Shown here in pieces: positions 33,296 through 48,828 of a DNA stretch of 64,000 bases. Every line of letters starts with the position of its first letter. The stretch's first letter is position 1. The position numbers and the translations under genes were made by a program. The DNA lies in NCBI GenBank assembly GCA_017550745.1, contig JAFZOG010000152.1:62001-126000 (forward strand), read 5' to 3'. A model generated the notes under the pieces. It searched no databases and was not told where the DNA came from. It saw nothing but the letters and a program-made list of their open reading frames with translations. Source of the stretch: Clostridia bacterium (GTDB lineage Bacteria; Bacillota; Clostridia; Christensenellales; Aristaeellaceae).

Positions 33296-33324
33296 TTGTA
33301 TCGCGGGTTTTTCCATGGTATAAT
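33296..33324 (+). promoter_or_regulatory. Sigma-A promoter at the left edge of repeat copy 1
   Basis: TTGTAT and TATAAT with a 17-bp spacer and an extended TGG. The -10 is the first terminal copy of the repeat's ATGGTATAATAA. Confidence 0.75.
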
Positions 33325-33405
33325 AAGGATGAGCGCACGGGCGAAGCCGTGGCGCGTGTCGGCGGCTCCCGTAAGGGAAAGACGCCGACCATCATGGTAT
33401 AATAA
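33315..33405. repeat. Promoter-associated 91-bp element, copy 1
   Basis: A 67-bp core (33327-33393) is flanked by two exact copies of ATGGTATAATAA (33315-33326 and 33394-33405). The whole 91 bp is identical to 48738-48828, while the flanks differ from the first base on both sides. The core can fold as two hairpins (GCGCACGG with CCGTGGCGC, one bulge; GTCGGCG with CGCCGAC holding TCCC/GGGA) closed by GATG/CATC. It stands between a promoter and the rRNA methyltransferase gene. Confidence 0.85.
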
Positions 33406-33485
33406 TAATCGAAGAAAGCAAAGTTTTCCATCTTGGCGGGCCTTGAGTGGTAACGCGCCGAGGGGTACGATACAGGAGGAAGACC

Positions 33486-34346
33486 ATGTTTCTTGCCAAC
33501 GGGTGGAAGGATTTTGAAGTGCTGGATACCGGCGGCGGCGAAAAGCTGGAGCGATGGGGGGACTATCTGCTGGCGCGGCCCGATCCGCAGGTGATCTGGC
33601 CCCGGGAGGACGAACGGCTCTGGCAGAAGGCGCAGGCCCATTATACCCGCAGCGAACGGGGCGGCGGCGCCTGGGACTTTCGGGAAAAGCTGCCGGACAG
33701 GTGGACGGTCTCCTACCGGGATTTGAAATTCTACGTGCGGCCCACGGGCTTCAAGCATACCGGCCTTTTTCCTGAACAGGCCGCCAATTGGGACGCCATG
33801 GCAAAGCTGCTTAAGAAACGTCCGGGCGTGAAGGTGCTGAACCTGTTCGCTTATACGGGGGGCGCGTCGCTGGCCTGCGCGGCGGCGGGAGCGCACGTGA
33901 CCCACGTGGATGCGGCCAAGGGCATGGTGCAGTGGGCGAAAGAAAACCGGGCGCTGTCCGGCCTGCCGGAAACCGGCTTCCGCTTCATTGTGGAGGATGC
34001 TCTGGCCTTCGTAAAGCGCGAAACGCGCCGGGGCAGCAAATACGACGGCATTTTGATGGATCCGCCCAGCTACGGGCGCGGGCCCACGGGCGAGGTATGG
34101 AAGCTGGAAAACGAGCTGTTCAACCTTGTTTCAGCTTGTGCCAAGGTGCTGAGCGACGATCCGCTCTTTTTCTTCGTCAACAGCTACACCACTGGCTTTC
34201 AGCCCGCGGTATTGCAGAATATCCTTGAAAAAACCGTCGCCCGGGCGTACGGCGGCAGGATCGATTCGGAAGAACTGTGCCTGCCTGTGCGCTCCGGCGG
34301 GGTACTGCCCTGCGGCGCCACGGGACGCTGGATCAGAGAAGAATAA
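33486..34346 (+). CDS. Class I SAM-dependent rRNA methyltransferase (RlmI/RlmK-like)
   Basis: A 286-aa methyltransferase. The C-terminal Rossmann domain has VLNLFAYTGGASLACAAAGA (motif I), VTHVDAAKGMVQWAKEN, and the catalytic DPPSYGRGPTGE loop near residue 196, as in 23S rRNA cytosine methyltransferases. The N-terminal 100 residues are short and lack a clear PUA domain. AGGAGG precedes the ATG at 33486. Copy 1 of the 91-bp element forms its 5' region. The target base is not determined. Confidence 0.85.
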   Translation: MFLANGWKDFEVLDTGGGEKLERWGDYLLARPDPQVIWPREDERLWQKAQAHYTRSERGGGAWDFREKLPDRWTVSYRDLKFYVRPTGFKHTGLFPEQAANWDAMAKLLKKRPGVKVLNLFAYTGGASLACAAAGAHVTHVDAAKGMVQWAKENRALSGLPETGFRFIVEDALAFVKRETRRGSKYDGILMDPPSYGRGPTGEVWKLENELFNLVSACAKVLSDDPLFFFVNSYTTGFQPAVLQNILEKTVARAYGGRIDSEELCLPVRSGGVLPCGATGRWIREE

Positions 34347-34413
34347 AATTATACCGCGCTTTTCGCTGTATCGCCGGTACAAATACATATGCTATCTTTC
34401 GGAGGGATGCAGG

Positions 34414-35142
34414 ATGGATAAACCAACAATTTTATTTGAGGATAACCATGTGATCGTGGCGGTGAAGCCTCAAAACCTGCTCACGCAGGGCGACGAAACC
34501 GGGAACGAAAACCTGCTGGACCAGATCAAGGCATACGTGAAGGAAACGTATAATAAGCCCGGAGAGGCCTACATCGGCCTGGTGCACCGGATGGATCGGC
34601 CCGTGGGGGGCTTGCTGGCGTTTGCCCGCACCAGCAAGGCGGCGGCGCGGCTGAGCGAACAGGTAAAGACCCACGAGCTGAACCGGCAGTATGTGGCCGT
34701 GGTGGAGGGGGAGACCCCGGAGAGGTTCACCTATATCGATTATCTGGCAAAAGATCCGGAAAAGAATATGGTGACGGTGCTCCCCTCCTATATGAAGCTG
34801 CAGGGCAAGGAAGCGATCATGCATGGCCGCACCGTCGCCCACCGGGACGGGATGAGCCTGGTGGCGATTCAGCTGGAAACGGGCCGGGCGCACCAGATCC
34901 GCGTCCAGATGCAGCACGCCGGGTTCCCGCTCTGGGGCGACCACCGATACGGCAACGGCAAAGGGAAGGAGCAGATCGCCCTGTGGGGGATGCGGCTTTC
35001 TTTCCCGCATCCCATCACCAAGGAACAAATGCTGTTCATCGCCCCCGCGCCGGAGGAAAAGCCCTGGCTGTGGTTCGAGCGGGAGCTGCGGGGCCTGGAA
35101 ACCGTCTGGCCCCAGATCAAGCCGGCGATGCAGGAAGAATAA
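34414..35142 (+). CDS. RluA-family RNA pseudouridine synthase
   Basis: A 242-aa enzyme that isomerises uridine in rRNA or tRNA. The catalytic motif is GLVHRMDRPVGGLLAFART (about 52-70), with the aspartate in HRMDRPVGG. ETGRAHQIRVQMQHAGFPLWGD near 155-176 is the second signature. No S4 domain is present, so it belongs to the short, S4-less RluA group. CGGAGGG precedes the start. It follows the rRNA methyltransferase by 67 bp. Confidence 0.92.
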   Translation: MDKPTILFEDNHVIVAVKPQNLLTQGDETGNENLLDQIKAYVKETYNKPGEAYIGLVHRMDRPVGGLLAFARTSKAAARLSEQVKTHELNRQYVAVVEGETPERFTYIDYLAKDPEKNMVTVLPSYMKLQGKEAIMHGRTVAHRDGMSLVAIQLETGRAHQIRVQMQHAGFPLWGDHRYGNGKGKEQIALWGMRLSFPHPITKEQMLFIAPAPEEKPWLWFERELRGLETVWPQIKPAMQEE

Positions 35143-35223
35143 CCCGCGGCGGCTTGATATCCCTGTGGGTGAAAACACCTGCTGTACCCTGCCAGGAAAA
35201 AACGAATCGGAGTATCAACGATC

Positions 35224-47290: not shown

Positions 47291-47291
47291 A

Positions 47292-47342
47292 AGCACGGGG
47301 ACAGACGAACCGCGAATCCTGCGGCAGGGCTGTCCCCGTGCT
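47292..47342. terminator. Bidirectional terminator
   Basis: AGCACGGGGACAG and CTGTCCCCGTGCT form a 13-bp stem with a 25-nt loop between the convergent decarboxylase and rimO genes. Confidence 0.7.
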
Positions 47343-47349
47343 ATTTGCG

Positions 47350-48669
47350 TTATTCCATTGCTTCTGCGCTAAGATCGTAGGTCTCGGCACCGGTGATTTT
47401 CGCCCGGACGAACCGGCCTTCGGCCAGCGGCGAATTGCTGAACAGCATGATTTCGCCGTCGGCGTCGGGGGCTTCCCACGGAGAACGGGCGGTATAATGC
47501 ATCCCGTTGTGGCCGGTAACCAGCAGCTTTTCCACCGTGCCTATCCTGCGCCGGTTCCTCTCCAGGCTGATTTTCGCCTGCAAAGCCATCAGCCTGTCCA
47601 GCCGTTCCTGTTTGATTTCCTCGGCGATCTGGCCCGGCATATCGGCGGCGGGCGTATCCTCTTCCGGAGAGAAGGCGAAAGCCCCCATCCGGTCAAACGC
47701 CATTTCCTCGGTGAAGTCCATCAGCGCTTGGAAGTCGTCCTCCGTTTCGCCGGGGAAGCCCACGATGAAGGTGGTGCGCAGGCAGAAGCCCATCTGCCGC
47801 GCGGCGGTGAGCATTTCCCTGGTATGCTTGACCGTGCCGCGCCGGTTCATTGCTTTCAGCAGGCCGGGGGCGGCGTGCTGCAGGGGCAGGTCGAGGTATT
47901 TGCAGATATTTTCCCGTGCCGCCATGGTTTCCAGCAGCTTCATGTTTGTTTCATCCGGGTACATGTACAGGCTTCGCAGCCATTCTACGCCGGGAATCGC
48001 CGCTGCCTCCGCCATCAATTCAGCCAGGGAGGAACCGTTGTCGATGCCGTATTTCGTGGTGTCCTGGGCGATCAGGATATGCTCCCGCACCCCCTGAGCC
48101 GACAAAGAGCGGATTTCCTCCAAAATCGCTTTCCTGTCCCTGGAGCGGTAGCCGCCCCGGATCAGGGGGATGGCGCAGTAGGCGCAGCGGTTGTCGCAGC
48201 CGTCGCCGATTTTGATGTAAGCGGAGTAGGGCGGCGTGGTCAGCACCCGGCCGCATTCCAGGAAGCCGTTCTGGCGGCGGGTGTCGGATGGACGCTGCCC
48301 GTCCAAAGCTTCCTGCAAATATGCGATCAGACGCCCGTACTGGTTCACGCCCAGCAGGCAGTCGATCTCCGGAATTTCCGAAAGCAGTTCATCCCGATAC
48401 CGCTGGGCCAGGCAGCCGGTGACGCACAGCGCCTTGCACCGGCCTGTTTTTTTGTATTCCGCCATTTCAAAGATGGTATCGATGGATTCCTCCTTGGCCG
48501 GGGCGATGAACCCGCAGGTGTTCACGATGAGCACGTCGGCCTCGCCGGGCTCGTGGGTGATGACCATGCCGGCATCCGTCAATTCGCTCAGCATCTGCTC
48601 CGAATCCACCCGGTTCTTTACGCACCCCAGCGAAATCATGCCGATTTTAAGACCTGAAAGATTTGTCAT
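47350..48669 (-). CDS. rimO: Ribosomal protein S12 methylthiotransferase RimO
   Basis: A 439-aa radical-SAM enzyme that adds a methylthio group to an aspartate of ribosomal protein S12. The N-terminal UPF0004 domain begins IGMISLGCVKNRVDSEQML and has two further cluster cysteines (VNTCGF, CVTGCLAQR). The radical-SAM motif is GDGCDNRCAYC-A-I-P, and a TRAM domain ends the protein. SLGCxKN is diagnostic for RimO over MiaB. The ATG at 48669 is chosen by family length; the ribosome-binding site is weak and the longer frame runs through the 91-bp repeat. Confidence 0.94.
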   Translation of the reverse strand: MTNLSGLKIGMISLGCVKNRVDSEQMLSELTDAGMVITHEPGEADVLIVNTCGFIAPAKEESIDTIFEMAEYKKTGRCKALCVTGCLAQRYRDELLSEIPEIDCLLGVNQYGRLIAYLQEALDGQRPSDTRRQNGFLECGRVLTTPPYSAYIKIGDGCDNRCAYCAIPLIRGGYRSRDRKAILEEIRSLSAQGVREHILIAQDTTKYGIDNGSSLAELMAEAAAIPGVEWLRSLYMYPDETNMKLLETMAARENICKYLDLPLQHAAPGLLKAMNRRGTVKHTREMLTAARQMGFCLRTTFIVGFPGETEDDFQALMDFTEEMAFDRMGAFAFSPEEDTPAADMPGQIAEEIKQERLDRLMALQAKISLERNRRRIGTVEKLLVTGHNGMHYTARSPWEAPDADGEIMLFSNSPLAEGRFVRAKITGAETYDLSAEAME

Positions 48670-48718
48670 CTGTTTCTCGCTTTCCAGAAAATCATTGCCC
48701 GTTCCTGAGAAAACAGGA

Positions 48719-48747
48719 TTGCAATGTTTCAAATGATATGGTATAAT
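48719..48747 (+). promoter_or_regulatory. Sigma-A promoter at the left edge of repeat copy 2
   Basis: TTGCAA and TATAAT with a 17-bp spacer, extended TGG. The -10 is the first terminal ATGGTATAATAA of the repeat. It points toward the antisense RNA of the toxin gene. Confidence 0.75.
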
Positions 48748-48828
48748 AAGGATGAGCGCACGGGCGAAGCCGTGGCGCGTGTCGGCGGCTCCCGTAAGGG
48801 AAAGACGCCGACCATCATGGTATAATAA
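48738..48828. repeat. Promoter-associated 91-bp element, copy 2
   Basis: Identical over all 91 bp to copy 1 at 33315-33405: ATGGTATAATAA, a 67-bp core (48750-48816), ATGGTATAATAA. The second terminal copy provides another extended -10 (TATAAT at 48821-48826) without a -35. Confidence 0.85.

Follow-up and report, generated by a model that had tools for sequence, protein, structure and literature searches.

Small folded repeats bounded by extended -10 boxes in a Clostridia genome: probable mobile cassettes with a preference for promoters

The bacterial repeats Correia, RUP, CIR and YPAL, which resemble miniature inverted-repeat transposable elements (MITEs), mostly have TA ends and target duplications according to extracts of two papers (PMC10969869, PMC2229807). 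Here we describe a repeat present in two identical copies in a 64,000-nucleotide stretch of the genome of a Clostridia bacterium (assembly GCA_017550745.1, contig JAFZOG010000152.1, positions 62,001 to 126,000, forward strand), hereafter the window. It is like those four in being small, non-coding, palindromic and present in many copies, and both CIR, with two arms and a linker, and Correia, which carries promoters, recall its units; however, the same extracts (PMC10969869, PMC2229807) describe none of the four as targeting a -10 box or as building mixed arrays through it. In Coxiella, copies of QMITE1 lie directly downstream of promoter elements of two small RNAs, while one copy of QMITE2 provides a -10 and another extends a protein in frame (extract of PMC5896051). 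Those repeats differ from the present ones in being longer, with inverted ends and with direct repeats whose sequence varies; the extract (PMC5896051) names no general -10 targeting, and our literature search, the three extracts included, named no element that homes on a -10 box. We read the new repeats as non-autonomous mobile DNA cassettes that enter TGNTATAAT-like sequences, in most cases extended -10 boxes, always in the same orientation and through an exchange inside the box, and we put the probability of this reading at a little under 0.6.

Other described systems share single traits with these cassettes. The palindromic elements of Rickettsia insert in frame within protein genes, of which there is one clear case here (a kinase-NACHT gene), although promoters look like the main target of the present units and genes like a minority one. 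Elements of the IS200/IS605 and REP/RAYT types form DNA hairpins and insert orientation-specifically beside a short target with no clear duplication. Hairpins and a fixed orientation at a short target are also found here, but the box is 9-10 bp, a closing stem joins both ends of the unit and there is no co-occurrence with a Y1 transposase. Integron cassettes, with their folded attC sites, build tandem arrays of interchangeable units in which structure is more conserved than sequence, as do the present units, which in contrast are gene-free and form a three-way junction rather than one long imperfect hairpin. We regard the family as a variant of the small palindromic mobile repeats.

Two copies in the window and the family around them

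Positions 33315-33405 (site 1) and 48738-48828 (site 2) of the window, 91 bp each, have no differences, and their flanks diverge from the first outside base. A -35 lies 17 bp upstream of the left TATAAT at each site, TTGTAT (33296-33301) at site 1 and TTGCAA (48719-48724) at site 2. Reading of both stretches confirmed these points, which had been made in an initial annotation of the window. The promoter scan called the site 2 promoter and left that of site 1 uncalled, the -35 of the latter matching the consensus at 3 of 6 bases; relatives have CTTG followed by variable bases at the equivalent place. The copies had been described as bounded by a 12-mer box, which with up to two mismatches occurs nine times in the window against 1.4 expected (four of the nine are the boxes of the two copies). 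However, the true repeat is shorter, the 10-mer ATGGTATAAT, because the AA after the left copy travels with the element and the bases after the right copy vary by site.

Both copies are on the plus strand. At site 1 the left box (33315-33324) is the extended -10 of a promoter common to relatives, and is followed by a unit, here called unit A (33325-33393), and by the right box (33394-33403), which has the P3 arm of unit A upstream of it. The core folds into a three-way junction: P1, a short closing stem that adjoins both boxes, and two hairpins, P2 and P3. In unit A, where P1 is shifted by three bases, the fold of the core and covariation from other family members place the 5' strand of P1 at 33328-33331, P2 at 33333-33355, P3 at 33358-33389 and the 3' strand of P1 at 33390-33393. 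Site 2 has the left box at 48738-48747, a unit of the same sequence at 48748-48816 and the right box at 48817-48826.

A search of the same assembly with the 91-mer gave 23 matches, full or partial, both window copies counted, and ATGGTATAAT itself has 62 occurrences in this genome, where its reversed control has 3. Among the own-genome matches, units with different cores are linked into mixed tandem arrays in which ATGGTATAAT is the joint, one locus (L009) holding four units of three kinds and another (L007) three different units. The length of a unit between its boxes is about 59-73 bp. Across 29 genomes of the genus, whose members are uncultured Clostridia, a pattern of two boxes separated by 45-75 nucleotides was present in 12 (control: 0), and a boxed covariance model (R1) found the family in 21, with at least 49 matches in the own genome, at least 45 in G028 and at least 40 in G013; as the search scored the best 150 candidates per genome, copy numbers may be low. 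Since R1 includes the boxes and hence favours boxed copies, a core-only model (R2) was built. The hand-chosen alignments behind both models omit window unit A and the short-P2 type. The search of genome and relatives for the core, which the initial annotation had recommended, revealed a repeat family of non-coding units, which would need a helper in trans, as the annotation had proposed.

Insertion at promoter boxes

Insertion of units is shown at four sites by relatives that have no unit there. Site 1 could be read in 28 genomes, the own genome included, and in 25 of these a promoter can be recognised, with CTTG followed by TATAAT or by a variant (TATTAT, for example), and no unit is present. 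The three filled sites (own genome, G017 and G028) have cores that are all different; the G017 unit, which was identified by eye, looks shortened. At site 2, for which 24 relatives were read upstream, the same neighbourhood is found only in G020, which is empty; G028 has another array ahead of the same downstream gene. Site 3 has a match in 29 genomes, of which 14 were read: no unit is present in 11, while the other three (G022, G015 and G002) have different units at the same promoter. Site 4 has a match in 21 genomes, and of the seven read five are empty, with G022 and G021 filled and their first unit in common. Within the own genome, the loci L005 (filled) and L051 (bare) seem to be two copies of the same repeated region. 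The orthologous sites with a single box and no unit (at site 1, in G020 at site 2, and at sites 3 and 4) are of the kind that had been proposed as a check, and they support the earlier idea of a mobile element with a preference for extended -10 sequences.

The surroundings of the left box were compared over 88 insertion sites, taken from 100 loci that had been picked from the top matches; some of the 88 are orthologous or double-counted (L303/L320, L326/L328, L065). A TTG lies 17 bp before the left TATAAT in 29 of these sites and 18 bp before it in nine; no site has it at 16 or 19 bp, and each of the other spacings between 8 and 25 bp has seven sites at the most. Matches to the -35 at four or more of six bases occur in 26 sites, compared with about 10 in shuffles. 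Counts of P1 and the -35 used 107 of 126 matches, the other 19 (partial, second-in-array or weak) being left out. Promoters with such a TTG have the TG that marks an extended -10 in 32 of 37 element copies vs 59 of 88 others, and base 4 of the box is G in 21/25 element boxes vs 20/46 others. A ribosome-site-like motif and an open frame follow within 130 nt downstream in 54 of 86 sites, a count that has no shuffled control.

Blind to the flanks, R2 gave 121 units in three genomes. A TGNTATAAT-like left box (up to two mismatches) accompanies 87 of them (40/46, 15/30 and 32/45 by genome) and 61 have a box on both sides, where we estimate the chance rate at about 5% a side. The box has one direction only relative to the unit; five inverted boxes were flagged by a loose match among the 121 units, none of them convincing. 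No box on either side, in either orientation, was found for 29 units; of these, 10 from G022 share a single composite repeat, and 13 from G028 are in arrays or leaders that have other spacers. The G022 loci (L414, L416-L423 and L426; of the ten, seven were read further than 16 nt) hold a GACG/CGTC subfamily within a larger AGGGATTAGGGAATAGGG-rich repeat that seems to have carried it.

A three-unit array lies in frame within the gene for a protein of 1044 residues that has kinase and NACHT domains. The insertion point could be read in two of four relatives, both without the array, as W-E-N-G-G in G026 and W-E-E-N-G-E in G009; set beside RAQW-ENGG of G026, the own sequence RVQ-WYN...LQNGG is most simply read as having halves of the target on both sides. 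As this array is inside a gene, the sequence of the box, rather than promoter activity, may be enough for insertion. Another unit is near the start of a gene (L481, 331-1341, minus strand), in frame within the N-terminus (signal peptide) of a substrate-binding-like protein whose ortholog is too diverged for the old site to be read.

Fold, junctions and the proposed exchange

The units are under a base-paired constraint, and the three-way junction with two hairpins foreseen in the initial annotation was borne out by fold and covariation. Folding of the 67-mer core gives z = -2.9. Over 18 hand-chosen cores, 97.3% of cells are paired, two-sided changes occur at 18 of 23 pairs, and the covariation score is 0.615, where shuffles give 0.216 and slid partners no more than 0.093; P1 is 100% paired, with two-sided changes at all four pairs. 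RNAalifold, applied to 20 units that include window unit A (which is not in the 18-core alignment), recovered the P3 hairpin only, with two-sided changes in 7 of 12 pairs. The ends of P1 in 95 distinct cores are AACG/CGTT (31), GATG/CATC (21), GTTT/AAAC (5), AATC/GATT (4), AATG/CATT (3) and others, 29 combinations in all, and 69 of these cores are paired at all four positions. G-U pairs account for 33 of 2202 predicted pairs (1.5%) vs 575 of 5518 in shuffles, and for 51 of 509 pairs (10%) in 20 control tRNAs. Their near-absence leads us to read the fold as a constraint on DNA, in which case the folded form would be a DNA structure. Alternatively, correction of hairpin arms during replication could keep the arms symmetric without any function.

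The covariation would also be expected of a structured 5' leader RNA, a regulator or mRNA stabiliser spread by recombination, and the location between the -10 and the ribosome site, with the motif and open frame counted above, fits such a role. However, the usual spacing from -10 to start places the 5' strand of P1 probably ahead of the point where transcripts from the left box begin, which together with the few G-U pairs weighs against the RNA acting in the 5' region that the initial annotation had suggested, strong as the covariation is. Searches of Rfam 15 gave no match to the element at the gathering score nor, for L003 and L004, at E up to 1, the unit is missing from most of the orthologous promoters read, and some copies are inside genes. 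We regard a leader RNA as very improbable.

For mobile DNA cassettes, the junctions are informative. At site 3 the box of the relatives has ATGC, and the filled copy has ATGC on the left and ATGG, the element consensus, on the right; at site 4 the relatives have GTTG, and the filled copy has GTTG on the left and again ATGG on the right. A half-box test, which takes deviations as independent, counted deviations in the 5' and 3' halves of 75 clean sites as 49/14 in left boxes and 21/34 in right boxes (p = 1.5e-5), and at 29 single-unit sites as 20/3 vs 7/13 (p = 6e-4). Where the left box deviates at bases 1-3, the right one has the consensus in 24 of 27 cases; for base 4 this is so in 13 of 22. 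A crossover inside the box would explain both sites 3 and 4 and the asymmetry between halves. In such a conservative exchange, the left box would consist of the 5' half of the target and the 3' half of the element, and the right box of the 5' half of the element (ATGG) and the 3' half of the target, by means of a recombinase or transposase that would have to be supplied in trans. The rebuilt box stays at the same distance from the -35, so that a promoter may survive insertion, and each new box could accept another cassette, which would build the arrays. Both the conservative exchange and single-stranded DNA as the folded form are supported, not proven.

Several observations weigh against this exchange. 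Deviations shared by left and right boxes number 17 vs 4.6 in shuffles over the 88 sites (p = 2e-4) and 6 vs 2.4 over 39 strict single-unit sites (p = 0.03), and at base 4 the right box equals a deviating left box in 6 of 22 cases. Target duplication would explain such sharing, for which arrays account in part only. The left box has ATGG at sites 1 and 2, where the nearest relatives have ATGC and GTGT and where the exchange would be expected to leave the old target. Selection for the promoter could alone protect TATAAT in the left box. The left box is absent from 34 of the 121 R2 units; copies away from promoters and without a repeat had been considered contrary to the initial proposal, and these 34, including the 29 that have no box at all, tell in part against that proposal. 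In the 18 cores, further pair types are not above shuffles (27 vs 25.7). A double-stranded circle of 79 bp would be very strained. No helper gene was found, Y1 transposases being the sole enzyme family tested for co-occurrence (29 genomes).

The shared deviations, which also exceed shuffles in sets of 60 (14 vs 3.4) and 48 sites (10 vs 1.4), would suit a MITE mobilised by a DDE transposase with a preference for TGGTATAAT and a target site duplication of 8-9 bp, as would the possible pairing between base 1 of the right copy and the final T of the left one, in the manner of short inverted ends. However, the right copy has ATGG at sites 3 and 4 in spite of ATGC and GTTG in the relatives, it keeps the consensus in the 24 of 27 cases noted above, and the box has one orientation. 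Moreover, the ends are about 4-6 bp and covary by subfamily (AACG/CGTT, GATG/CATC, GTTT/AAAC) instead of forming a fixed inverted repeat. As for an autonomous parent, no exact pair of boxes 0.5-3 kb apart on one strand was present among the 62 boxes of the own genome, the assembly of which is incomplete. We consider a MITE of this kind unlikely. Target duplication was favoured at first on the shared deviations and dropped to second place once the empty relatives at sites 3 and 4 and the half-box test had been considered; sites with the consensus on both sides are uninformative in this respect. The 12-bp duplication of the initial annotation had to be given up in that form, given a repeat of 10 bp and a right copy that matches the consensus at sites 3 and 4, and the shared-deviation tests keep a duplication possible.

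The consensus right copy at sites 3 and 4 could also have been brought by a single-stranded element of the IS200/IS605 or REP type, moved by a Y1 (HUH) transposase, with the left box as target, the right box as element end and no duplication. Two hairpins, a fixed orientation 3' of a short target and pairing at the DNA level are all consistent with this route, but right copies deviate too, mostly in the 3' half, and the hairpin feet have no constant guide sequence by eye. The transposase domain (PF01797) occurs in 10 of the 29 genomes, which are incomplete, and the element is found in 6 of the 10 genomes with Y1 vs 15 of the 19 without. This lack of association led us to reject a Y1 transposase as the helper, and we judge the whole route to be quite unlikely.

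If exchange inside the box is correct, these cassettes would be mobile elements that use a core promoter box as attachment site and can thereby settle in promoters that stay intact, which would amount to a bacterial safe-harbour strategy at the -10. Promoter evolution and tandem promoters in gut Clostridia would then be read differently, and an undescribed recombination enzyme for very small folded DNA would be indicated.

Similar boundaries in other genomes and neighbouring features

Tandem arrays joined by ATGGTATAAT are also formed by an 80-nt hairpin family in Acetatifactor-like metagenome-assembled genomes (MAGs; L108, L117, L120, L161, L191) and by a 91-92-nt hairpin family in Lachnospiraceae MAGs (L092, L102, L106, L171, L205). 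A TTG is found at 17 bp in 2 of 13 sites of the 80-nt family, and in the 91-92-nt family at 18 bp in 2 of 14 sites and at 17 bp in none. As the -35 signal is unclear in both, we do not assign them to the family described here. A wider class of promoter-homing cassettes in Clostridia, consisting of hairpin units, those of the present genus included, with apparently unrelated sequences and a common ATGGTATAAT boundary that would move as folded single-stranded DNA into extended -10 boxes, perhaps by one shared recombinase, is a tentative and on balance doubtful idea; the opened promoter, or its sequence, would perhaps serve such an enzyme as attachment site. The box pattern in other genomes was also matched by CRISPR-like arrays with a period of about 66 and repeats ending in TTGGTATGGTATAAT or similar, so that each repeat closes with an extended -10 (L094, L123, L150, L157, L177 and others), and these were set aside. 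Viral contigs contained the pattern in 16 stretches, none of them like the present units by eye.

Downstream of the right box at site 1, what is probably a second unit, decayed and with a degenerate box, was recognised by eye at about 33406-33472 (plus strand) and is absent from the listed matches of both models. It is followed by a gene for an S-adenosylmethionine-dependent methyltransferase (PF10672; 33486-34346, plus strand). At site 2 (48738-49019), a terminator-like hairpin (48888-48916, plus strand) would end a short transcript from the promoter, and this predicted RNA converges on a small hydrophobic open reading frame on the minus strand (48894-49019; 41 residues from an internal ATG), for which a Pfam search gave nothing above cut-off. 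The layout resembles a type I toxin-antitoxin pair. Elsewhere in the window, a NiCo riboswitch was found at 1119-1194 on the minus strand (49.3 bits).

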